Source of the DNA: Xestospongia bergquistia
Taxonomy: Eukaryota; Porifera; Demospongiae; Haplosclerida; Petrosiidae
Direction: 5' to 3'
DNA: 64,000 nucleotides
Assembly: GCA_963965975.1 (NCBI GenBank)
Contig: OZ014417.1
Coordinates: 8,232,746-8,296,745, forward strand
The number at the start of each line of letters is the position of its first letter. The first letter of the stretch is position 1. Both the position numbers and the translations under genes were made by a program. The notes below the pieces were generated by a model. The model had not been told where the DNA came from, made no database searches, and was given only the letters and a program-made list of their open reading frames with translations. Of this stretch, positions 7,520-48,432 are shown piece after piece.

Positions 7520-10500
7520 TTAGATCAATCTTTCTGGACTCCGTGGACCGTCATTGTCTGGACTCTGTGGTCCATCAATGTCTGGACTCTGTGGATCATT
7601 ATCATCATTTCTTTTCCTGCGAGATTCAGACACACCTCCTTGATTACGTAGCCGGCGAGCAGCTAATCTTGCCTTTTCTCTTTTCCTTTTCAAAGTATCA
7701 TCACCAGACACACTTCCACTTGAGATATCAGCTTCACTTGTTGATGCAGTGCTGTTACGATCACCTTTTTTGCCACCAGATCGTGTAGCATTACGTCTTT
7801 TCCAAGAATATCCACCATCTTGTTTTTGTGCAGTGTTACTATGGTCTTCATGTGAAGGTGGATCAGTATGTTCTGTTGCCTTGACAACCAGTGTCCTACG
7901 GCGAGGTTTAATTGGAGGTGTGGGTGTAGGTGTTGTCTCCTTTTCTTCTGATGTAAACCCAACCTCTGTTTTGTTCTCTAATTCTTTTACTGGATATGTT
8001 AGATCAGAAATTTCCTTTAATTCATTAACTGGACTTGTTAGCTCAGATAATTCCTTTTGTTTTTGTTTATCTTCTGGTTCCTTGACTGGAATTACTGGGA
8101 ACATTAGCTCAGAGGTATCTTCTGGTTCCTTGACTGGAATTACTGGGAACATCAGCACTGAGGTATCTTCTGGTTCCTTGACTGGAATTACTGGGAACAT
8201 TAGCTCAGAGGTATCTTCTGGTTCCTTGACTGGAAACATTAGCTCAGAGGTATCTTCTGGTTTCTTGACTGGAATTACTGGGAACATTAGCTCAGAGGTA
8301 TCTTCTGGTTCCTTGACTGGAATTTCTGGAAACATTAGCTCAGAGGTATCTTCTGGTTCCTTGACTGGAAACATTAGCTCAGAGGTATCTTCTGGTTTCT
8401 TGACTGGAATTACTGGGAACATTAGCTCAGAGGTATCTTCTGGTTCCTTGACTGGAATTTCTGGAAACATTAGCTCAGAGGTATCTTCTGGTTCCTTGAC
8501 TGGAATTTCTGGAAACATTAGCTCAGAAGTATCTTCTGGTTCCTTGACTGGAATTACTGGGAACAATAGCTCAGAGGTATCTTCTGGTTCCTTGACTGGA
8601 AACATTAGCTTGGAGGTATCTTCTGGTTCCTTGACTGGAATTACTGGGAACATTAGCTCAGATGTATCTTCTGGTTCCTTGACTGGAATTACTGGGAACA
8701 TTAGCTCAGAGGTATCTTCTGGTTCCTTAACTGGAATTACTGGGAACATTAGCTCAGAGGTATCTTCTGGTTCCTTGACTGGAATTACTGGGAACACTAG
8801 CTCAGAGGTATCTTCTGGTTCCTTGACTGGAAACATTAGCTCAGAGGTATCTTCTGGTTTCTTGACTGGAATTACTGGGAACATTAGCTCAGAGGTATCT
8901 TCTGGTTCCTTGAGTGGAAACATTAGCTCAGGCATACTAATGGATTCATTCATGGAGTTATCTTCTTGTTCATTGACTGTAATTGTTAGCTCAGAGGTAG
9001 TACTGTGTGGTTCTCCTGTCAAGTCTTCAGGTTCTTGTTGATTTTGTCTGCCTGGATACTTTAATTCAGATGTATCGTTTGGAAGGAATGGGTTTTTACG
9101 AGAGAAACTAAGATCAGATTTATCTTCAGTAACTATGTCATTATCTTTGTTGATACTTTTACGTTTGGAACGACGAGTAGCATTCTTTCTTTTCAGCCTC
9201 TGTGGACCCTCCTCTTCCTTATTGTTCTGTTCTGAGACACCATCTCCATAATGACCACTATTGTCCTCAATATGTATTGAGGGTTCAGAAACAAGAATAA
9301 GAGGAACATTGGAACTTTCGTCAAGTGATTGACGTATTACTAACAAATCTCCTCCTACTTCGAGGGAAGAGTCACTGTCGGGATAAGGTGAATGTGATGT
9401 TTTATCTTCACTGTCTGTACTGATCTGATTTTGATGGAGTAGTTTTGCTCCAGGCTTGTATTTTGCTAGTTCTTGTCTCTGGCTGGGACTCATAGCAAAA
9501 GATCGTCTGATACCAAAGTGAGGTGGTGAGGGAGGAGGAGAGGGTGTTGGGTCGATAGATGGTGTGGTGGCACTAGAAGGACGTCCTGGTTTATCTAGAA
9601 TCACACTACTACGTTGTCTATGTGAGGATGAAGCTCGCCTATCTTGTGCTATGATCATGTCTTCTACACAACTACTACTTTTACGAAGTTCATCGAGATT
9701 ATCCCAGCCAGGAGTTGAAGCACGAGAAGGCGGACGTGAGCTATCATCACGATCTTGAAAAGTAAGATTATTAAAAGAATTCATAGTAGCATCTTTAGCA
9801 AGTTCTTCAATATCCTCTTCCAACATACTCTCCTCAGTTTCTGTCATTCTAATTTTTTCACCTAATGCTACACCAGATATTTCCAAAGCTACATAAATAA
9901 AATATAATAAATAAAATGGACTTGAGAATATAAAGAGACTTACAAGCTTTGCGTTGTTTGTTTTCAGTAGTCTACAGAGAAAAAATCATTAATATATTAA
10001 TAGTAACTATTATAATGACATACTTTGTTGATTAAGTCTTCAAGTTGCTTTTTATTAAAAGTTTGAGGAGGTAGTGCATTCATTAACCAAGCTCCAGTCT
10101 TACGCCACAACTAACCAATTATGAGACATATCAAGTGGGTGTGGCTTACAAATGGATGCAGTTACCTCTTTTTCTTCAAAACAGACAGGACATAAACAAA
10201 TTAGGTCTCCAAATTCTTTCTCTTCATATTTACAACGCAAGCAAACAATCTATGCGAGTGAGAGAGAGAAGTGACATACTCAAGAGAGTTGACCACACCT
10301 ACTTTGCTACAGACATGACAGTAAGATGCTCGCTCATTATTGTGTGGTTGGTTAAAGTCATATCCACACAAGATACAAGTACTAACACCATCTCCTTCAC
10401 AATTCTTCTTTAGTTCATCATATTGTAAAATCAATGATCTAAAAATAAGTAAGTCCCTGTCATTATTAGTTTATAAATGAGTAAGTCCCTATCATTATTA

Positions 10501-36483: not shown

Positions 36484-37074
36484 GTTACCGTTAATGAGAT
36501 TCATAAGCGTACACCGTGCCGCCCCACAAAAGCATGAAGACAAAATCTTACGTACATATAAAAGGAAACTTGAACAGTCCTGAGTGCCAGTGTGTTGTGG
36601 GCCAGCGTTCTGCAATGCATCAGACCTCTGAGATGGTTACCAGCATACTCTACGGAGTATCCGAAAGGCCGACTAGGATAGGGCTGGTAGTCTCCCTTTA
36701 AACGAGACGAGGCTGGTGTATTTGTGGTTCCCGGTTCCTGAATGCGACATTCCCTAAGAGCTGGAATCCCGTACGGCTGGTTTTAAGTTAGGGCGACGCT
36801 CCAGCCAGGATTACCTCGCGAAGACGAGGGTTACCAAGCCAGGTGGCGGTCCCAGCTAGCAATAGCAGGGAATCCTGGAGCCTAAGTGGAAGCCTGAGTG
36901 GGTGAGCGAGTAGGAATCGTTTGGGCAACACACAAGGGTTTTTTTTTCATAAATTTAGATTTAGTTTGTGCATTAAGTTCTGTGATAACTACATTTGACA
37001 ATTCTGTAATACTAAGTGTGACACTAAATAGTATAGTTCTTGTCTCAAAATATTTGTTTATTGTGTTAATTTCA
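36484..37074 (+). repeat. Structured GC-rich dispersed repeat, copy 1
   Basis: A 591-bp block repeated in inverted orientation at 47841-48432 with very few differences. The left ~430 bp is clearly more GC-rich than the AT-rich surroundings and holds compact hairpins: ATACTC-TACG-GAGTAT, GAATG-CGA-CATTC and CTCG-CGAAGA-CGAG. Then come GTTTGGGCAACACACAAGG, a T run (~36940-36948) and an AT-rich 3' part. Short open frames are present but their products resemble nothing known. It lies between the RPAIN start (36416) and the CASP start (37306). Confidence 0.85.
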
Positions 37075-37305
37075 TATTACTAATGTAAAGTATCATTGTC
37101 TCTTTTTTATGTTACAACAAATAAAAATCCTTACCTAAACACTATTAATCCACAACGTGTAACTTCTAAGAGAATACAATAAAACTTAAAAGAAGGGGTT
37201 AAAAATTTAGATAACCTTTAATAGCTGTGGGAGTATGACCGGTAGCCATCTTACTTTTAATGAGAGGTGTGGTATAGTTTGTTATGCCACACCCACTAAT
37301 AATAA

Positions 37306-40300
37306 ATGGCTTACCAAAATGCTATTCAATTTTGGAGGGATTTTGATGTTCCATCCTTACAGGTATTTATATTATCATAATAGAGTTTATTGTATATTGT
37401 AATAGAGACAACTTGATGAGGAAGCTGCCAATGTTGCTAGGAGACAAGATGACTCTGATGCCTCAGTCAAGAAACTTGTTGAATTAAGTCGTGATTTTAA
37501 AAGGAATTCTACTGAGGTAATGGACTTATATTAATTGAACTATCTAGTGACATATCCTGTTTTATTAGGATGTCCGTAAAACTGTGTCTCCATTATTGAG
37601 ATCATTTCAATCAGAGATTGATTCTCTCACCAAACGAGCGAATGCATCTGAAACAACTTTCTTAAATGCTTACAAAAAATTTATAGAAATACCAGGTACT
37701 TAATTAATGGTAATTAACCACACCCCCTTTGACCTCACCTACCCAGATCCCATTCCACTCTTGGAACAAGCTTTGTCCCAGCAACAACGATTAAATGCAA
37801 TGCAAGATTTGGAAGTAGAAAACGTTAAACTGAGAGAAACACTTGATGAATATACAAAGGAATTTGCTCAAGTCAAAAACCAAGGTATTAAAAATGATTA
37901 AGTTATCATGTGATTATCATGTGATCAGAGGCAACTATAACCAAACTACGAAATCAAATACGAGAACTGGAGAACAAAGCTGAAGAAAGAGCATCAGTGA
38001 GTTAAATTAATTAATAATTATTGGGTTATTAAATAAACTTCCCTCATAGGTAAAAGCTAATGAATATGAAACTCAACTTTATGAAGCATTTAAAGAGAAA
38101 GAAAAGTATAGAAAATTAATGAATTAATTAACACATTCTTTGTTTACTCAGAGAAATGGATGAACGTGTTGCCATGGCAACAACAAAAATGGAAGAGGCA
38201 GTATCAAAAACAAGTGTATTGCAGTCAGGTAAGTTCATTAATTAGAGGAGGTGTGGCTATTTTATTATCTACAATGTAGCTTTGGATTCTACTCAATTGG
38301 AATTATTTGAACTGAAAAACAGACTAGATGATGACAGTTCAGCCAGGTGAGTAACCCCTAGTAATTATAAATTGTTACTATTAATACAGAGCAGCTGAAT
38401 TAGATATTTTAGTAACTGATTTAGATCGTGCAAATCAACGTGCGTTAACTGCAGAGAGAGAACTTGATAAGCTCAAGAGATCTCAAACAACAACATTAAC
38501 TGATCCTCATCTAAAAGTACATGATATTATTATAACATATAATAATATATGTATATATAGTTATCAGTAGATACGACTGAATTAGAACTTGAGCTTCAAG
38601 CTAAAGATAAAGAATTGAGTTGTGTATTAGATGATGTTGAAAGATTACAAAAAAGTTTGAATGTTCTCAAAGAGAATTCAAGTAAACATATCATGTTATT
38701 GGAGTCTCAGTTGAGAGAGAAAGAGAGCAAGTTAAGGGACTTTGAGCAAACACTAGAACATCAAAAAGATTATGAAGAGATCAAAAAAGAAATAAAGTGA
38801 GTTTATTAATAGTAACATTTCAATTAATACATTTTATTTTAGTATATTGAGGAGTGTTGAGTTCTCATCAAGTACTCATGAGGCAATTCCCACAGTAAGT
38901 TTCTGAGTGATCACATGACTGTCACATGATCTATTTATCTATCTATCTATATATATATATAGAGTTTGACAAAACCTTTGGAAGTTCTTTTGTTGGAGAA
39001 AAACAGAGGTTATTTATGGAAATTAATATTTTATTAATAATTATAATATTCTTAATAGGATTAGTAAATGAAAACACAGCATTAAAGACAGAATTGTCTG
39101 AACTAAGAGGTGAGAGAGAGAGAGAGAGAGAGAGAGGTGTCATCTATTCTCTGTAGGTCACTTTGTCACAGTACAAACACAGTATAAAGAATCATTGCAG
39201 ACATTACAAGATCAAACATCATTAATAACACAATTAGAATCTGATCTAACACGTATTCAACCATATTTACCTCCAAGAACAGAAGGAGAGGTCATTGATA
39301 ATATCTTAATTATTAACTATAATTGTTAAATATAGGGTCAAGCCAGTCCCTCTGATATAATTGCTGAAGCTGTCCGTGATATACATCCTGAGAGGAAATC
39401 ATCAGGTATGAAGGTCTGTTGTCTCATCATGTTAATATTGTGTTATTATAGAAGTGGGCGGAAGTAATGAGTCATTATTATCTATTATTACAAGTCAAAG
39501 GGAACGTTTCAAACAACGAAATATTGAACTACAAACAGTTAGTTCTACTTATATATCCATTTATTTACTATGTATCCATTTATTTACTATGTATCTATTT
39601 ATTTACTATATACCTTAATTTATTAAGTATCTTTTTTCACAAAGGAGTGTCAGCAACAGAAGCAGACTGTCTCCGTTTTACAACGAGAGGTAGACACATT
39701 ACGAGGGGATAATGTTAAAATGTATGAGAAAATAAGATTCCTTCAATCCTACCCATCACAGGTAATTTATAACTATTAATAACTATTAATAACTATTAAA
39801 TATTAATAGCATAAAGGAGGTGATGATACAACAACAAGTCGTTATTCTAATCAATATGAGGCGGGGCTTGATCCATTTGCAGCCTTTAGTGCTAAAGTGA
39901 GATTAATTAAGATATTATTATTAAATTAATTTATTAATTTAGGAAAGACAAAGAAAATACATGCAATTAAGTGGACCTGATAAAGCCACCTTAATAATGG
40001 TCAGGTTAATTTACATTATATCCAATTATTTGTTTATTACAGGGGCGATTTATTCTCTCCAATAAAATAGTTAGAATGGGAGCATTCTTCTATACAATTA
40101 TACTACATCTTATCGTCATGTTGGTAAGTTGTATCACCACGCCCACATTATTAATTACAGGGTGTGTCCCTTGTAGTTATTGGCCAAATTAATCAATACT
40201 ACAGATATGCAAACAGTTGACTTATACAGCGAGTGTGCCAAAAAGTAAGTGTTATTGTTGGCACGTGCATATGTAGTATAGAAGAATATCAGTTAAATTA

Positions 40301-40408
40301 TAGACATCTATTTTTTATAGGTTTAATGAACATATGTCAATGTTTCATCCACCTAATGTAGAAAAAGTAATGGAAACATTTCATGGAGGGGGGGGTGGAG
40401 TGAGATAA
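37306..40408 (+). CDS. CASP golgin (CUX1 Golgi isoform family)
   Basis: Tail-anchored Golgi coiled-coil protein, 666 residues, 22 exons: 37306-37362, 37406-37516, 37569-37695, 37747-37884, 37929-37996, 38050-38105, 38152-38228, 38280-38346, 38390-38516, 38561-38796, 38843-38894, 38963-39008, 39059-39109, 39157-39290, 39336-39405, 39452-39537, 39645-39761, 39810-39896, 39943-39999, 40043-40123, 40177-40244, 40321-40408. Near the N-terminus, QFWRDFDVPSLQRQLDEEA matches CASP QYWKRFDLQQLQRELD. Coiled coil fills residues ~20-560. The conserved C-terminal block includes SLLSIITSQRERFK, ENVKMYEKIRFLQSYP-like sequence, RQRKYMQLSGPDKATL and NKIVRMGAFFYTIILHLIVML (membrane anchor). In vertebrates CASP is spliced from the CUX1 locus; here no CUT or homeobox exons are seen downstream. 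CASP acts in intra-Golgi transport. Confidence 0.95.
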
Positions 40409-40450
40409 CCCTTAATTAAAACATATTAAACTAATAAATGTAATTTAAAT

Positions 40451-41341
40451 TTAATCTGAGTTTAATTTAGGAGGTGCAGTTGCTGGCACAGCATTATATT
40501 CACGTTTAGTTTTCTTATAAATAGACTTGGCTTGTATTTGTATGGGAGTATCTGGTTTATCAGTAAACACAGCTGTTAGATAACCTCCATAGACACATCC
40601 AGTATCAAGACCAGTGGCATAAGGATAACTTTGGAAATAACGACGAGCATCATGTCCAAAATAAATGTGATCTGGTCCTTCCCAAGCTTGGGCCCATGGC
40701 TGACCTTCTGGTTGGGACTTTTTATGGCCTGAAAAAGTTAGACTTTTAACATCAAATGTGACATCCCTCATATGCAGTAGATTATCTTGTTTCTGATGTA
40801 CAATATCTACTCCTGGGACAGCACCAGCATGTACTAACATTACTTGACGAGAGGGAAATCTAAGTGTAAAGGGCAAATTAAATAACCAATCTATTTCCTC
40901 TTTTGATAAATTATTCATCCATTGAAATGAAGAGGGCAGACTTTCTTCCTCTTCTTTATGACGTTGCCATTCTCTTAATGAGATTTCGTCATGGTTACCA
41001 CGGACACAGTACCCACCTAATTCCCGAACTAACTGCACAACTTGTGTACTATTAGGTCCCTTGTTTATAATATCACCTACAAATGCTACGCATACATTAG
41101 GATCACGTGCGTTATACGTGTCCAGTAACTCAACTAATTCATCATAACATCCATGAACATCCCCCACAATCAAAAGACGACGGTCTTGTATCTCGTCTTC
41201 CAGGACAACTCTGTGTTCTACTAACGGAACTGGTAAACCATAGGGTGTTCTGTCAACGAGAAATGGATGACGGGAGCCTGGAAAGAACCTTTTTAGTGTG
41301 TTTCTAAAAAAATGAACACAACAAGCAACAAACACACTCAT
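40451..41341 (-). CDS. ApaH-like metallophosphatase (ALPH)
   Basis: 296 residues in a single uninterrupted exon, in contrast to its intron-rich neighbours. PPP-superfamily metal motifs are present: GDVHG (~67), GDIINKGP (~100) and GNHD (~127), plus later His residues in VHAG and FGHD. Replacing the usual GDxxDRG by GDxxNKGP is the signature of ApaH-like phosphatases, relatives of bacterial Ap4A hydrolase that cut dinucleoside polyphosphates or RNA caps (the trypanosome member decaps mRNA). The N-terminus (SVFVACCVHFFRNTLKRFF) is hydrophobic and basic and could be a targeting signal. I chose the Met at 41341 because the upstream in-frame start is not ATG. Stop is 42 bp from the convergent CASP stop; start is 182 bp from SH2B. 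Confidence 0.85.
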   Translation of the reverse strand: MSVFVACCVHFFRNTLKRFFPGSRHPFLVDRTPYGLPVPLVEHRVVLEDEIQDRRLLIVGDVHGCYDELVELLDTYNARDPNVCVAFVGDIINKGPNSTQVVQLVRELGGYCVRGNHDEISLREWQRHKEEEESLPSSFQWMNNLSKEEIDWLFNLPFTLRFPSRQVMLVHAGAVPGVDIVHQKQDNLLHMRDVTFDVKSLTFSGHKKSQPEGQPWAQAWEGPDHIYFGHDARRYFQSYPYATGLDTGCVYGGYLTAVFTDKPDTPIQIQAKSIYKKTKREYNAVPATAPPKLNSD

Positions 41342-41523
41342 CTCGAATCTGAAAACCACGCCTATCAATGAAATTTAATTATAAGATCATTAATAGGGTT
41401 TTACTCAAACACGTTCTTATTTATTGTAGCCGTAAAGCCTAGAGACTAAACTATTACATAAAGTACAAGAAGAGAGTGTCATTGGCAGGAAATCTACGAG
41501 AACACTTTATTACCGTTACCGTA

Positions 41524-42703
41524 ATGTTAGGAGCTTCTCGTAGAAGTCGTGAACCCAGTCCTTCAGTGGCACAGCAAGATTGGAGATTATTCTGTCAGCA
41601 AGAAGGCAAAAAAGCCGCCGAGTTGTTTCTGAATCATCTCACAACGTACAGAGAAGCTCACACCGATGTAGTAGAGCCGTTATGTATTCGAGAATTCGCT
41701 ATTTCTTTGACAGAAGCGCTAAGTTCGTATGGGATTAGCTCTATCACTGAGCCAACTCCTACAGTCACATCTGGTAAACCTCCTTCTGCTAAAAGCAAAC
41801 ATTGGTGGAAAATTTTTAAGAGAGGAAGAAGTGTCCGTCGTAAAACAGCACACAGTGACATTTTTTTAGATGAAACAGGTGTCATTCTTGATAGAGTTGT
41901 TTCACAAATGAATCTTCAAGAAGATGAGATAAACGGAGATGAACCCTCATGGGGACGTTGTCGACTGATCCTTATTAATCGCCATGGAAATTATCAATTA
42001 GAGATTTACTCTCCTCCTAAAGTATGTTATACTCTATGTTCTGTACATGTAATGACATGTTGTTGATATAATGTTAGAGCTATTATGAGAGAGTGTACAT
42101 ACTAAAGAGAATTTATTGTTTTTATTAGATGGTTTGTGGTAATGGGATATTATAAGTAACTTTGTATTAGCAGGTGGTTTTGAAGGAAACTATTAATTGT
42201 TATTTGATATAATTTTAAGTATTATATATTATAATTTTAGTGAGTAGTTTGTTCAGCGGGAAGGATGTGTGTGGTTTGTATTTACCATATATGGAGATGA
42301 GCTTGTAGTAATGATAAGATATAGGGGCAGTTTAAATATTGTATTTACGAGGAACTTCCCTTTATGATTGTTTATGTCCTATTCATTGTTTACCAATATT
42401 TTGGTGGTGTTGAATCAATTAGTAATTATTGATGTCCTAATTAGTTATATATATATAAACATAATGGACAGTTATAATGGACACATGATGTATGACAATG
42501 GACAGATGGTTTATACCGGATGCATGGTGTATTACAATGGACAGATGGCTTAAATGACATAATGGACAGATGGTGATACTATGATTCTTTGAAGTGGTCT
42601 AGTGTTGTATATCGACCCAAACCCTATAAATCATGACATAATTAATATCATAATGAGATCATACTATTGTAGTCTGTGTGGGGACTTTACATGATAGTAG
42701 GTG

Positions 42704-42767
<64 letters not shown>

Positions 42768-45539
42768 TAGTAACAGTGGAGTAGTCTTTAGACCTTCTAG
42801 TACTCTAGCTCTGTGAGCTCATGTTACATCACGTACATGTTAGTAGATGTGATGGTTATAAACAGCATATGGTCATCACTGATACTTTTCATTGAATTAC
42901 TTAATTTACAACTTGTGAACAAATAGCAAATTGTCTTTAGAATATAGTAACTTAATTGATAGCAATTGTTCAAAGATTGTTTAGTATAACACTCTATATG
43001 TGTTGTCAAATTATTGAACTGAACAATAGGTTAATATAATGAGCATTATGTATTTAACACACAATGTACTATATTTAATGTTTAACACATCACTATTGTG
43101 TAATATTTAACACAATATATTATATTGTTCATGTAATTCTGTTAATGATTGTCATGTTAGCAAGTTTACTATATAGTCAATGAGGACATAGTTAGAAGTC
43201 CTTGTACATGTGTGAGAATACTTGTAGACAACTTCCTCTGTGAGGTTTTGGGATGCCAGTCGTTGTTATGGTAACTAATGTTCTTCTATCAACCAATTAT
43301 GATAGGAAACCTCAAGGGCACTTATGTATTGATAATGAATTTTTGTTTTTTTAGAGTGCTGTGCCCAAAATGTCGTTGTTTTGTTTCTTAATTGAAGAAG
43401 TTAGATCGACATCATATCTAGAAGTACCTGATTCTGAATCTTGTTTTGTTATTAAGGTATTATTAGTAGATCATTAATTACATTGTCATACTTTTATATT
43501 TTAATATTATAAGTAGATCATTAATTACATTGTCATACTTTTATATTTTAATATTATAAGTAGATCATTAATTACATTGTCATACTTTATATTTTAATAT
43601 AGTCTCACAGTCATGGTGAGTATGTTTTTGATGCTGGTTGTGTTGCTGATAAAGATATATGGATGAATACTATTATGCAATATACAACTAATGGACATCT
43701 ACCAATGTAAGTTGATCTAGTTAATGATAATAAATTAGTTTATTTATTTTCTAGTTCAGCGTCACTTGGAGCATTGTCTGAAAGCCAAGGCGCACGTTCA
43801 AGTAGTCGAGGAGTATCACGATTTCCAAGGTCTCGTTCTCAAACACCCATTGCCTGTACTACCTCTCCTCTTGTTGAAAATCATCGTCCTGCAGGCATGT
43901 CTGATCAGTACACTTCACATTCTCAACCAGCTGATGAGGAACCAATACATGTTGACATCTTGTCACTCAATCCTAGCCACGCCCCTTCACATGATAGACG
44001 TTTTGTACAAAGCATGTGTATAGATACACCCACTTGTTTAATGATACCAGTTTCGACATCTTCATCTCCCCCATCTAATCCTAACTCGCCTCCCTCGTCC
44101 AATGATGAACAAGATGCTCCTTATCCAAGTCAGCTTACTTCTCCTCGGAAGAAGTCTCCGCCCACTGACTTACCCATCAGAAATGAGGCTCGTTCGTCAT
44201 CATCATCAGCATTACATCCAGTATCATTAGCAGCCATGGACACGATGACCACACCCTCTACAAGACCACCAGTTAACCGCCAAAGAAAATCAAGTGCACC
44301 ACCTACTGTTGTTCATGATTTACAAAATGAAGCTTCATCGACTCCACCCCCTCGTTATAACAGCTCGGAAGCTTTGGATCGTGTTGGTTATGAGGACAGA
44401 TTGAGTTTTATCACTGTTCCATTAAGTCTTGGAGAGAGAGGTCATTCTCGACAGCGCAGTTATGACAGTAGTTATAGTCACAGTACTGATATTGGGGCTC
44501 CAACTTCACCTCTTGCTAGAACCTGTTATAGAATAGATATCGGAAGCAATGAGAGAATTAGCAATGGAACGAGTGGGCGGTCCAGTGCTTTCTCAAGTGC
44601 TGGTAACTTACATGATGTTACCAGAGATCAGATAAATTCTCCTGTTACCGTGACAACCACACCCGATCCTGTTTTACAAGCTGACACGTCTAGTCAGTCT
44701 TCTAATCCATTGTATATAGAGACATCAGGTCCTGCTGATATCCAATTACCACGACATACTGAACACCCTTATCAATCTTGGGCTAATACTTCTGTTGATG
44801 TTGAGAACCTTCGTAATCTCTCTCAGTATCCGTGGTTTCATGGAATGATTTCTCGTGCTAATGCTACATCTTTAGTATTGCTTCATGGTACTGCAGGGAG
44901 TGGTCAATATCTTGTGAGGCAGTCAGAATCGAGAGAAGGGGATTTTGTATTGACATTTAACAGCCACAATAGAGCTAAGGTAAATATTAATAATGAACAG
45001 GGGCTCACTCATTGATTTATTATTCTATTTTCTAGCATTTAAGGCTTACTCTAGATTCAACAGGATGTACTATACAACATTTGTGCTTTGAAGATGTCTG
45101 TTCAATGTTAGAATACTTCAAGACTCATCCTATTCCATTAGAAACTACACCAGCTAGTGAAGATATTACTCTGACTGCATTTGTTGATCGTTCAGCTTCA
45201 GATCATATCCGAACAACTACAATCATTAATTTAGAACGAATACAACGTACACCTCCAAGAAGAGCACGCTCAATTCATGTCACGTCGTCTCTCGGAGCAT
45301 CACTAGATGGATCTAGTTCTCCTGTGCATGGGAATCGGTCTGGTCGCCAAGGTAATTGGCGTCAGATTTTTAATCGGCAAAGGTCTTCAAGTTCTCAGAG
45401 CATTCGCTCTCATGCTACAGTCCAACGTACACATTCAGCTAATGCTGGATCCTTACAGGAAATACCGGTTCGAGCTCGTGGGAATAGGTGGGGTAGTCGT
45501 GAACGTAATGAGAATTCTTATGTTAGTAGGCATTACTGA
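41524..45539 (+). CDS. SH2B-family adaptor protein
   Basis: Signalling adaptor of the SH2B1/2/3 (APS/Lnk) family, 810 residues, 5 exons: 41524-42021, 43355-43456, 43603-43706, 43755-44979, 45036-45539. N-terminal phenylalanine-zipper-like helix (DWRLFCQQEGKKAAELFLNH), PH domain (~130-235: CRLILINRHGNYQLEIYSPPK, SCFVIKSHSHGEYVFDAG) interrupted by a 1.3-kb intron, a long Ser/Pro linker, then an SH2 domain (~590-690: YPWFHGMISR, YLVRQSESREGDFVLTF with the phosphotyrosine-binding Arg, HLRLTLDSTGCTIQHLCF). The block from WFHGM to HPIPLE is strikingly close to vertebrate SH2B. Family members couple receptor tyrosine kinases and JAKs to signalling. The start is the first in-frame ATG. One pre-duplication ortholog is likely. 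Confidence 0.94.
42022..43354 (+). other. Large SH2B intron 1 with simple repeats
   Basis: 1.33-kb intron, unusually long for this window. It contains an AATGGACAGATGG-type minisatellite (about 42470-42570), TATA-rich segments and a (GT)n microsatellite (~42711-42763). I see no exon or conserved element in it. Confidence 0.7.
42711..42763. repeat. (GT)n microsatellite
   Basis: About 26 uninterrupted GT units inside SH2B intron 1. Confidence 0.97.
43457..43602. repeat. 52-bp tandem repeat filling SH2B intron 2
   Basis: Three near-identical ~52-bp units (AGTAGATCATTAATTACATT, then GTCATACTTTTATATTTTAA and a short tail) make up the whole intron. Each unit ends in sequence close to the real acceptor, so the intron appears to have grown by tandem duplication. 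Confidence 0.9.
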
Positions 45540-45626
45540 TGTCATATGACTTATCATATTCCTCATTGTATATATATACACAATTTAACTTTTTCAGTTC
45601 ATGTTTGAAATAATTTATTTTTTGAA

Positions 45627-45727
45627 TTAATTTCTCTTGCCTCTTTTATTTTTAGGTTTTGAAGAACGAGTTTTTTTACTTGTTCCATTATTGATAATGT
45701 CTTTCTTTTTCCTAGAGAGAGAGAAAG

Positions 45728-45780
<53 letters not shown>

Positions 45781-47400
45781 TTAAACAAAGGACATCTTAC
45801 TTGGTAAATCCTAGTTGTTCTCCAGTAACTACCATTGTTGTTTCTTCCTCGCTGTCATCTTGTTCCCAAGTTGGAACTGTTTTTGGAGTTTCCAAAACTT
45901 CAATTAAATCTTTAGTATTAAGGGGCATTTGTAGCTCACTAGTATGATCCCCCTAGAAACGTAATAAAACACAATAAGACATGACCACACCCACCAATAT
46001 TATAATATCAGGTTCCTCTTCACTGATAAGTTCTACTCAATAAATGTATTGATATTTCATAATATTATATAATATACCACTTTCTTTATTAGTACTAATA
46101 TCTACACAATGAGTATCTTCTATTGTCTCTGTTTCTAAAATAGACAGATCTCTTTAAAGAAAAATTATTTTTTTTATATTTCATTACTTACGTAATTGTA
46201 TTAATTGTTGAGGATGTCCCCTTAAGGGTAGCTTTAATCAATTCATTAATTTCACTAACTTTAACAGTGGCAATTTGAGTACATCTCCTGATCTATGATG
46301 ACACATAACATTAGATGATGTCATTATGACATCTACCTGGTCTGGTAATAAAGCTACACCTCCTGTCATTTGTAATGTACATATTTCCCGATGTACATTC
46401 ATGGCTAATATTAGCCGCCCATCAATGACAACTTCCTCCTCGTGTGTGGGGTCAACCAAAAGATACTCCCTGGTAAATATGTGACCATATCTACTTTAAG
46501 TAGTACTTACCCTAGATGGTAGAACCCAAATGTAACACATAATGGCATATGATGAATGCTAAGAGGGACTGGTTCTCGTTCTGTTACAGGATGCTAGTGG
46601 AATAGACATGAGACTTGAAAAGTAATATATATTTACAATAGTAGCTTCTTCACCGACTACAGTAACATCAGGTCTCCTGTGTAATTAAGAAATATTGTAG
46701 GATTATATAAAGGGTTGTCTCCCTCTTACCTAAAGTGTTTCAATGCTGTTATAGCAGCTATTGTACAACAGTCAATGATATTACCACAATCATTAAGAAC
46801 ATGGATATCAACGCGTACAGACCACACCTATTATTAAATCATAGTATTAATATAATTAACAGGGGCTACCTTATGTCCAGCAATAATACACAATCCTTCA
46901 GTATCGATTGCACGAGAGTCTTTAAAACATCTTTCTAATAAACGTTCAGTCTCTACAACTAGAGGAGAGGGCCTAAGAAAAGACTAAAAAATAAACAAAC
47001 ATGTTAGATACCTCCCTCCTATTTCATAATAAGGTGAAGCCATTGGTGAAAGAGTAACATTAAAAAATAGTTGTCCATCAGTAGGCCGTTGAGGACGAGG
47101 TGATACCACCTCACAGGATACACAAGTTAATACTCTATAAAGTAATTATTTGAGAGGGAGGAGTGATAGGGCATACCTTGTCCCACCTAATGTCACTGAA
47201 ACATTACCTGGTGTTGTATCACTGGTATTTATTGTAATAGTACGATAATCATAGACTGAGCGACCATCTAAACGCTACATATATATAATATAAATTACTT
47301 AGTCTAGTCATAGCAATTACTTCACCTTTCTTTCTTTAATTGCTTCTAATATAAATTGTCTTTCACATGTAATCGAGACTGCCTCTTTGCTTCTGTTCAT
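45627..47400 (-). CDS. EXOSC9: Exosome subunit EXOSC9 (Rrp45/PM-Scl75)
   Basis: Non-catalytic RNase PH-fold ring subunit of the RNA exosome, 401 residues, 13 exons on the minus strand: 47326-47400, 47177-47274, 47012-47134, 46870-46972, 46730-46827, 46637-46676, 46511-46593, 46337-46469, 46192-46292, 46078-46151, 45995-46035, 45801-45952, 45627-45711. RLDGRSVYDYR, CEVVSPRPQRPTDGQLFFN, DTEGLCIIAGHKVW, RVDIHVLNDCGNIID, HFRRPDVTV, PVPLSIHHMPLCVTF and NVHREICTLQMTGG all match the human protein. The C-terminal tail is acidic, then ends in a Lys/Arg-rich segment, as in PM-Scl75. Nuclear/nucleolar RNA processing and decay. A 63-bp element lies 36 bp upstream. Converges on SH2B with 87 bp between stops. 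Confidence 0.97.
45729..45779. repeat. (AT)n microsatellite
   Basis: About 24 AT units in the last EXOSC9 intron, immediately beside a (GA)n tract that forms the acceptor polypyrimidine tract on the minus strand. Confidence 0.95.
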
Positions 47401-47435
47401 ACCTGCAATATAAACCAGTTACATGCTTCAGGTAG

Positions 47436-47498
47436 TATACGGAATGTTGTGTTAATCCGCACTACATTTCCATATAAATTTCAGAATGTTACCGTATA
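47436..47498. promoter_or_regulatory. 63-bp TATACGGA...CCGTATA element, copy B
   Basis: Begins TATACGGA and ends ACCGTATA, internal AATTTCAGAATGTT; same length and same orientation relative to the gene as the copy upstream of VPS53. It ends 36 bp upstream of the EXOSC9 start codon. The middle ~25 bp differ between copies; the ends and the AGAATGTT block are conserved. Confidence 0.6.
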
Positions 47499-47751
47499 TT
47501 TCCGTAATTGAGTAGTTGTATATTTTCAACTACTTCATAAATTAATATTTTTCATAACTTTTTATAGCAGGTTCAATTCTTAAATCATTTTTAATTGCTT
47601 CTTTAATTCCCACTTTAACTCATCCTACTTTAATTTTCCTTCATTAATTTTATTGTTATTTAAAGCTGAAATGTTCAATATCAGACTGACCAGTTTTACT
47701 GACAATCCTTCCAAGTAAATTTAATAGATTTAAGATTTATAAAATAAAAAC

Positions 47752-47840
47752 AAAAAAACCTTGTGTGTTGCCCAAACGATCCCTCCTCACTCACCCACTC
47801 AGGCTTTCACTTAGGCTCCAGGATTCCCTGCTATTGCTAT
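47752..47840 (-). repeat. Partial tandem module of the structured repeat
   Basis: An ~89-bp segment (CCTTGTGTGTTGCCCAAACG through GGATTCCCTGCTATTGCTAT on the + strand) repeats 47970-48058 with several differences. It means copy 2 of the structured repeat is followed by a second, older copy of its terminal module in the same orientation. Confidence 0.8.
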
Positions 47841-48432
47841 TGAAATTAACACAATAAAACAAATATTTTGACACAAGAACTATACTATTTAGTGTCACAC
47901 TTAGTATTACAGAATTGTCAAATGTAGTTATCACAGAACTTAATGCACAAACTAAATCTAAATTTATGAAAAAAAAACCCTTGTGTGTTGCCCAAACGAT
48001 TCCTACTCGCTCACCCACTCAGGCTTCCACTTAGGCTCCAGGATTCCCTGCTATTGCTAGCTGGGACCGCCACCTGGCTTGGTAACCCTCGTCTTCGCGA
48101 GGTAATCCTGGCTGGAGCGTCGCCCTAACTTAAAACCAGCCGTACGGGATTCCAGCTCTTAGGGAATGTCGCATTCAGGAACCGGGAACCACAAATACAC
48201 CAGCCTCGTCTCGTTTAAAGGGAGACTACCAGCCCTATCCTAGTCGGCCTTTCGGATACTCCGTAGAGTATGCTGGTAACCATCTCAGAGGTCTGATGCA
48301 TTGCAGAACGCTGGCCCACAACACACTGGCACTCAGGACTGTTCAAGTTTCCTTTTATATGTACGTAAGATTTTGTCTTCATGCTCTTGTGGGGCTGCAC
48401 GGTGTACGCTTATGAATCTCATTAACGGTAAC
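47841..48432 (-). repeat. Structured GC-rich dispersed repeat, copy 2 (inverted)
   Basis: Reverse complement of 36484-37074, with only scattered substitutions seen (for example GTGCCGC against GTGCAGC, and CAAAAGC against CAAGAGC). Homology ends sharply at GTTACCGTTAATGAGATT on one side and TTAATTTCA on the other. All three hairpins listed for copy 1 are preserved exactly. It lies upstream of EXOSC9 and downstream of POLD4, in one of the few long gene-free gaps. Confidence 0.85.

Follow-up and report, generated by a model that had tools for sequence, protein, structure and literature searches.

In this study, we analyzed a 64,000-nt stretch of the genome of the sponge Xestospongia bergquistia (C7:8232746-8296745 of a 146.5-Mb, 21-contig genome; hereafter the window), in which two nearly identical copies of a G+C-rich element lie in inverted orientation at 36484-37059 (+) and 47857-48432 (-), spaced 10,797 nt. 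Over 576 bp the copies are 99% identical, with mismatches only at 36520, 36530 and 37044; none falls within the predicted RNA, and the RNAs of the two copies are identical over their whole predicted length. The first-pass annotation of this DNA had already described such a pair, and its length of 591/592 bp corresponds to the 576 bp plus a short extra stretch with one indel. The G+C-rich part that it reported is also real, the RNA part (36583-36938) having 54.8% G+C versus 33.9% in the window minus both copies and 25.2% in the downstream part. The hairpin ATACTC-TACG-GAGTAT that it had picked out is present in copy 1 and at 48256-48271 in copy 2, and the T run that it saw after the G+C-rich part is present in both (Table 1). 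Two things had been overlooked, a promoter and a 3'-terminal fragment adjoining copy 2. Judged from sequence, each copy would encode a structured noncoding RNA some 356 nt long, under a type 3 (U6-like) RNA polymerase III (Pol III) promoter and with its end at the T run, a reading to which we give a probability of about 0.8.

The element belongs to a large family. A genome DNA search with it gave 484 first-look candidates, 40 of which were scored. The first-pass annotation had suggested a whole-genome search, and a 32-base core allowed up to 3 mismatches was found 296 times in the genome (167 forward, 129 reverse), versus 0 for the reversed-pattern control. We read 101 copies, namely the first 30 of the 40 scored candidates and 71 of the 100 core places listed on contigs C1 and C2; this sample is non-random, and its scored-candidate part favours copies like those of the window. 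The 101 copies form two subfamilies of 62 (subfamily 1) and 39 (subfamily 2) members, and counts of the 3' signatures in the genome, truncated copies included, were 150 and 163, respectively.

Conservation, taken as mean pairwise identity per block over the 101 copies, varies sharply along the element. From 0.37 in the upstream flank it rises to 0.92 in a box resembling a proximal sequence element (PSE), falls to 0.49 in a 16-bp spacer and returns to 0.93 in a second box, followed by a 4-bp gap (0.63), the TATA region (0.98) and the segment from TATA to start (0.76). Within the RNA, a 5' end at 0.66 and a 3' end at 0.72 enclose a body of 338 columns at 0.985, 234 of which are invariant; past the RNA, identity is 0.91 in the T run and 0.67 beyond it. 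A PSE match (3 substitutions allowed), a TATAWAA motif and 5 or more T occurred jointly in 99/101 copies, the remaining two missing the PSE match only. The longest T run of the tail measured 6 to 17 in all 101 copies, in line with the Pol III terminator proposed by the first-pass annotation. The U6-type promoter, which it had not seen, is the main new evidence. Identity of 98.5% over the RNA body, against 49% in a spacer lying within the promoter, points to selection. A protein-coding role appears unlikely, since indels of 1, 2 and 4 nt separate copies within the RNA and RNA lengths range from 319 to 360 nt (355-359 nt in 98/101).

The promoter was compared with the upstream regions of other small RNA genes in this genome. 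Family searches, whose gene counts are lower bounds, gave two U6 matches (loci L031 and L032) and three strong RNase P RNA matches, plus one weaker match above the cut-off. Upstream of U6 L031, the boxes GTTAATGAAATTCAT, CCCACAA...ACAAAATC and GTAAATATAAAAG resemble those of the element, and its TATA lies 26 nt upstream of the assumed start, the same as in the element; the RNase P genes have a looser version of this promoter. Since the Rfam U6 match begins 3 nt past the assumed start, the start of the predicted RNA is placed at 36583-36586. With a weight matrix built from the 101 copies, the upstream regions of both U6 and all three RNase P genes scored above all 1500 random window segments serving as background, as did the fragment L037, but not the weak RNase P relative L036 (323/1500). 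A block-by-block test against 3000 random segments also covered genes of the signal recognition particle (SRP) and mitochondrial RNA processing (MRP) RNAs and six U2 loci (L111-L116; 12 U2 matches were over the cut-off). For the second box, 0/3000 segments were as good in U6 L031 and the three RNase P genes, versus p of 0.05-0.75 for the U2 loci, 0.72 for SRP and 0.40 for MRP. The PSE gave p 0.003 in both U6 genes, 0.007-0.016 in RNase P, 0.17 in SRP, 0.49 in MRP and 0.34-0.47 in five U2 loci, and the TATA box p 0.002 in both U6 genes, correctly placed, 0.02 in MRP, 0.11-0.44 in U2 and 0.66 in SRP. SRP and MRP genes are thus without an element-type promoter, and U2 genes show it weakly at best; the family promoter appears to group nearest to U6, its split from U2 being imperfect. 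The U2 genes have common upstream boxes of their own by eye, TATTCAT, mostly also TCCCCTAAG and sometimes ACTATAAAAA; this set may correspond to the U6 promoter. The three RNase P RNA genes (L033, L034 and L035; C5:8258235-8275789) stand in the same orientation at a spacing of about 8.6 kb.

RNA structure was assessed on an alignment of 66 of the 68 distinct RNAs, the shortened RNAs of L040 and L044 being left out. According to subfamily, the 5' end reads CCAGUGUGUUG or GGUUGUGUUG and the 3' end, in most copies, CAACACACAAGG or CAACACAACAUG, and the 5' and 3' subfamily letters agree in 101/101. An end-to-end stem of 8-9 bp is kept in both subfamilies; its outer pair (alignment columns 8-358) is U-A in 43/66 distinct RNAs and G-C in 23/66. 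Five of the six internal variants tabulated occur in both subfamilies (36612 A is in subfamily 2 only), an indication of recombination in the RNA bodies, with the two ends remaining matched. Among the hairpins, the UACG loop (87 copies) is replaced by UUCG in 14/101, which preserves UNCG. The hairpin CCUCG-CGAAGA-CGAGG is unchanged in 84/101 copies, carries single changes in 4, and is rebuilt in 13/101 into a longer form of the CCUCGUC-UUCG-GACGAGG type, 9 of these with a UUCG loop. GCUA-GCAA-UAGC is unchanged in 97/101. The covariation proposed as a check by the first-pass annotation was seen in the end stem and two hairpin loops and nowhere else in the RNA, and the supported structure should be taken as the end stem and the named hairpins only. 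The R1 covariance model, built on the 3' domain, was run against 10 sources and matched only the window and L018; the U6 (2), RNase P (3), SRP, MRP and U2 (1) loci included among those sources gave no match. Two CCUAAG hexamers occur at 36753 and 36881; this motif is half of the 11-nt GAAA-tetraloop receptor, and the RNA also bears GNRA loops, while the other receptor half, UAUGG, is absent from the RNA.

Several observations weigh against an RNA gene of this kind. First, Pol III and RNA polymerase II genes are not cleanly split by promoter in these sequence comparisons: the second box of U6 L032 (p 0.048) is no better than that of U2 L112 (0.051), the PSE reaches p 0.013 in one U2 gene, some U2 genes are preceded by TATA-like boxes by eye, and the best TATA matrix match of the RNase P genes is off-position (-118), the ACTATAAAAA box of these genes being seen by eye. 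Second, an invariant TTTT lies inside the RNA at 36781 (66/66 aligned RNAs) and the RNase P genes end at TTTT by eye, so that early termination is conceivable; MRP too seems to contain an internal TTTT. Third, the folding energy of the whole RNA is ordinary (z = -0.70), with 25/100 shuffles folding equally well. Double changes occurred in only 1/119 predicted pairs and none in the other 118, and pairing-keeping changes were 11/33 (expected 11.7, p 0.80) for type 1 and 13/33 (expected 11.2, p 0.19) for type 2, no more than chance would give. Furthermore, two lineages of loci, each with its own end type, could explain the matching, although the differing letters of the end stem have changed in complementary fashion.

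Table 1. Features of the two element copies and of the adjoining fragment (window coordinates)
Feature	Position	Strand	Remark
Copy 1, PSE-like box GTTAATGAGATTCAT	36490..36504	+	92% mean pairwise identity, 101 copies; same box upstream of both U6 genes
Copy 1, diverging spacer within promoter	36505..36520	+	49% mean pairwise identity
Copy 1, second promoter box CCCCACAA...GAAGACAAAATC	36522..36547	+	93% identity; matched upstream of U6 L031 and of three RNase P genes
Copy 1, TATA box TATAAAAG	36557..36564	+	block 36552-36563 98% identical; distance to start equals that of U6 within about 3 nt
Copy 1, predicted noncoding RNA, ~356 nt	36583..36938	+	body 36593-36930 98.5% identical (101 copies)
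Copy 1, end-to-end stem, 5' arm GUGUGUUG	36590..36597	+	pairs with 36926-36933
Copy 1, end-to-end stem, 3' arm CAACACAC	36926..36933	+	pairs with 36590-36597
Copy 1, hairpin AUACUC-UACG-GAGUAU	36645..36660	+	UACG 87/101, UUCG 14/101
Copy 1, hairpin CCUCG-CGAAGA-CGAGG	36814..36829	+	this form in 84/101
Copy 1, hairpin GCUA-GCAA-UAGC, GNRA loop	36855..36866	+	unchanged in 97/101
Copy 1, T9 run, presumed Pol III terminator	36939..36947	+	tail T run 6 to 17 in 101/101 copies
Copy 2, PSE-like box	48412..48426	-	located by sequence
Copy 2, second promoter box, differing from copy 1 at one position	48369..48394	-	coordinates by arithmetic
Copy 2, TATA box	48352..48359	-	located by sequence
Copy 2, predicted noncoding RNA, no mismatch to copy 1	47978..48333	-	coordinates by arithmetic
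Copy 2, T9 terminator (presumed)	47969..47977	-	located by sequence
3'-terminal fragment of older copy	47749..47839	-	93% to 36857-36947; cmsearch 56 bits; abuts copy 2

The copies are both dispersed and clustered. Many of the 100 core places listed lie a few kb apart, including tandem units of 4315 bp. On C4-C9, 62/66 subfamily 1 places lie within 1 Mb of a contig end, versus 15.6 expected, in a count that treats clustered copies as independent; C1 and C2 hold 13 and 7 places of this subfamily. Of the 163 subfamily 2 places, 76 lie on C1 and 24 or more on C2; the other 63 are outside the places listed. Confinement of all copies to chromosome ends was rejected because of the many internal copies on C1 and C2; no telomere repeats were seen at the three contig ends that were read. 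5'-truncated relics of the element occur at 76-80% identity. The 4315-bp tandem unit contains, besides the RNA gene, a DDE_1 transposase-like open reading frame (ORF) (L110, 3387-4181 (-); E 3e-21), and an exon-like ORF (DRYQDAHEYYVLLVNNL), ubiquitin-protease-like by eye and without a Pfam match, lies upstream of the RNA gene in 7/30 loci (L004, L006, L007, L010, L012, L027 and L030). Neither ORF accounts for the family. Elsewhere in the window, a long ORF at 7520-9985 (-) includes 48/39-bp tandem repeats at 8020-9012 coding EPEDTSELMFPVIPVK-like units.

The history of copy 2 can be partly read from its junctions. By eye, its upstream flank resembles that of other copies, whereas copy 1 is without such a flank; past the flank it is like copy 1 up to about 37074, and then the 3' fragment of an older copy follows. 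This fragment (47749-47839) is probably the remnant of a gene displaced by copy 2. The simplest reading is one-sided gene conversion, in which homology at the promoter of the resident gene would have been used, the sequence of copy 1 copied, and the end joined within the resident gene. Such a conversion would explain the sharp edges of the pair. These edges, noted in the first-pass annotation, exist for this pair (36484 and 37059) but do not characterize the family, in which edges vary over the 435 pairs of 30 loci.

Three other explanations were weighed. The first shares the core of ours and differs in the number of working copies: few loci would be active, and most copies would be inactive and homogenised by gene conversion. 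The presence of copies in tandem and segmental duplications fits this, as does the junction between copy 2 and the tail, which resembles one-sided conversion by eye; however, promoter and terminator are kept in 99/101 copies, and the promoter boxes are stable while the intervening spacer changes, and we consider it improbable.

The second, a non-autonomous mobile element (like a short interspersed nuclear element, or a DNA element) with a Pol III promoter on board and young copies, had been the other option of the first-pass annotation. About 300 dispersed and clustered copies, the sharp edges of the window pair and the 5'-truncated relics are compatible with it. Relative to 36661, 220 of the 435 locus pairs have their left homology edge at -200 to -161 (the PSE) and 275 their right edge at +280 to +319, shortly after the T run; the ends of a unit might give such clusters. 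However, alignment would place edges at these two points as well wherever flanks diverge and functional blocks stay, and other pairs share more, their homology reaching -1680 on the left and about +1780 on the right. Flanks common to several loci fit duplication of larger segments. Boxes of 92-98% identity flanking a spacer of 49% would be unexpected for a young element, and reverse transcription of the RNA would not carry the promoter along. With promoter and terminator kept in 99/101 copies and flanks shared beyond the unit, this explanation is quite unlikely and less supported than a noncoding RNA family, for which the 296 copies, the end stem, the UNCG loops and the T run speak; the sequences have the look of an undescribed RNA family more than of a mobile element.

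The third, by which the element would be a Pol III RNA already known (7SK, telomerase, RNase P or MRP RNA) but too divergent for Rfam to recognise, is the least probable, and for none of these RNAs would one expect intact copies by the hundred. The window gave no Rfam match at gathering score, in agreement with the first-pass annotation, which could not assign the element to a known class; on the element itself there were 4 sub-threshold matches, the best being SNORD34 (19.2 bits versus a cut-off of 38) in the A+T-rich part, and the tRNA scan gave 0. Exact-pattern scans gave 0 and 0 in viral contigs and 0 in prokaryotic contigs, a result uninformative for animals. 7SK is similar in length and has a type 3 promoter, and a search of the genome for it gave no match, though with a silent control, so that its absence is not shown; identity with 7SK is nevertheless improbable, the RNA having neither an Rfam match nor GATC, the HEXIM site of 7SK, and hundreds of copies. 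The template of telomerase RNA is longer than one telomere repeat, and telomerase RNA was rejected on a longest CCCTAA-repeat match of 6 nt, assuming TTAGGG telomeres (unseen at the three contig ends). According to PMC9841428, the gene of an animal telomerase RNA can be of type 3. RNase P, MRP and SRP RNA identities were rejected as well, with no covariance match in the element and matching genes at other loci of the genome, where U2 and 5S RNA matches are also found.

Our explanation is that the RNA would be transcribed by Pol III from the U6-like promoter, its ends joined by the stem of 8-9 bp and its body bearing UNCG- and GNRA-capped hairpins, and that it would assemble into a ribonucleoprotein (RNP). 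About 300 near-identical genes may be kept uniform through selection, gene conversion and segmental duplication, and their number may supply a high RNA output, with dosage by gene number as for 5S rRNA. Most likely, this is an abundant structural RNP RNA, possibly lineage-restricted.

The closest systems within the genome are the U6 and RNase P genes. Their promoters, too, show the order PSE, second box, TATA (for RNase P, the TATA is seen by eye), and both kinds of gene finish at a T run; in U6, the distance from TATA to start is also nearly equal. In contrast, their RNAs are unrelated, and at least 2 U6 and at least 3 strong RNase P genes stand against 296 copies. RUF6 of Plasmodium, a host with an AT-rich genome, is also reported to be a G+C-rich RNA family transcribed by Pol III, whereas the element has no shown link to one variant gene family. 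The nearest parallel in the literature consulted is found in the dictyostelid Class I RNAs (PMC7919456), which are multigene and lineage-specific, share a conserved element upstream and close their two ends by a compensatory stem; they also carry an 11-nt sequence motif. Unlike the element, these RNAs are about 60 nt long with variable bodies; the element is about 356 nt with a nearly invariant body, and 98/101 of its RNAs, at 355-359 nt, lie outside the Class I length. Our approach is akin to promoter-based recognition in two of these sources, a covariance model being used together with upstream elements in PMC7919456 and small nuclear RNA promoter comparison serving to recognise new type 3 RNAs in PMC9841428. 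Searches of an open-access library listed no paper on such a sponge RNA.

On balance, and with less assurance than for the gene itself, we favour an undescribed class of animal noncoding RNA, a Pol III RNP RNA of about 356 nt, closed at its ends and rich in tetraloops, with about 300 dispersed genes, possibly specific to sponges or to one lineage. To our knowledge, animals have only a small and ancient set of type 3 Pol III genes, comprising U6, RNase P, MRP, 7SK and a few more. In part, this picture follows PMC10498592. The family is also a clear case in which to study concerted evolution of dispersed genes, and its native U6-type promoter might serve guide RNA expression. If the reading is true, the gene number would be on the order usual for core translation RNAs, and another RNA of this type, kept in about 300 genes and possibly belonging to an early-branching animal, would represent a major, hitherto unknown RNP.

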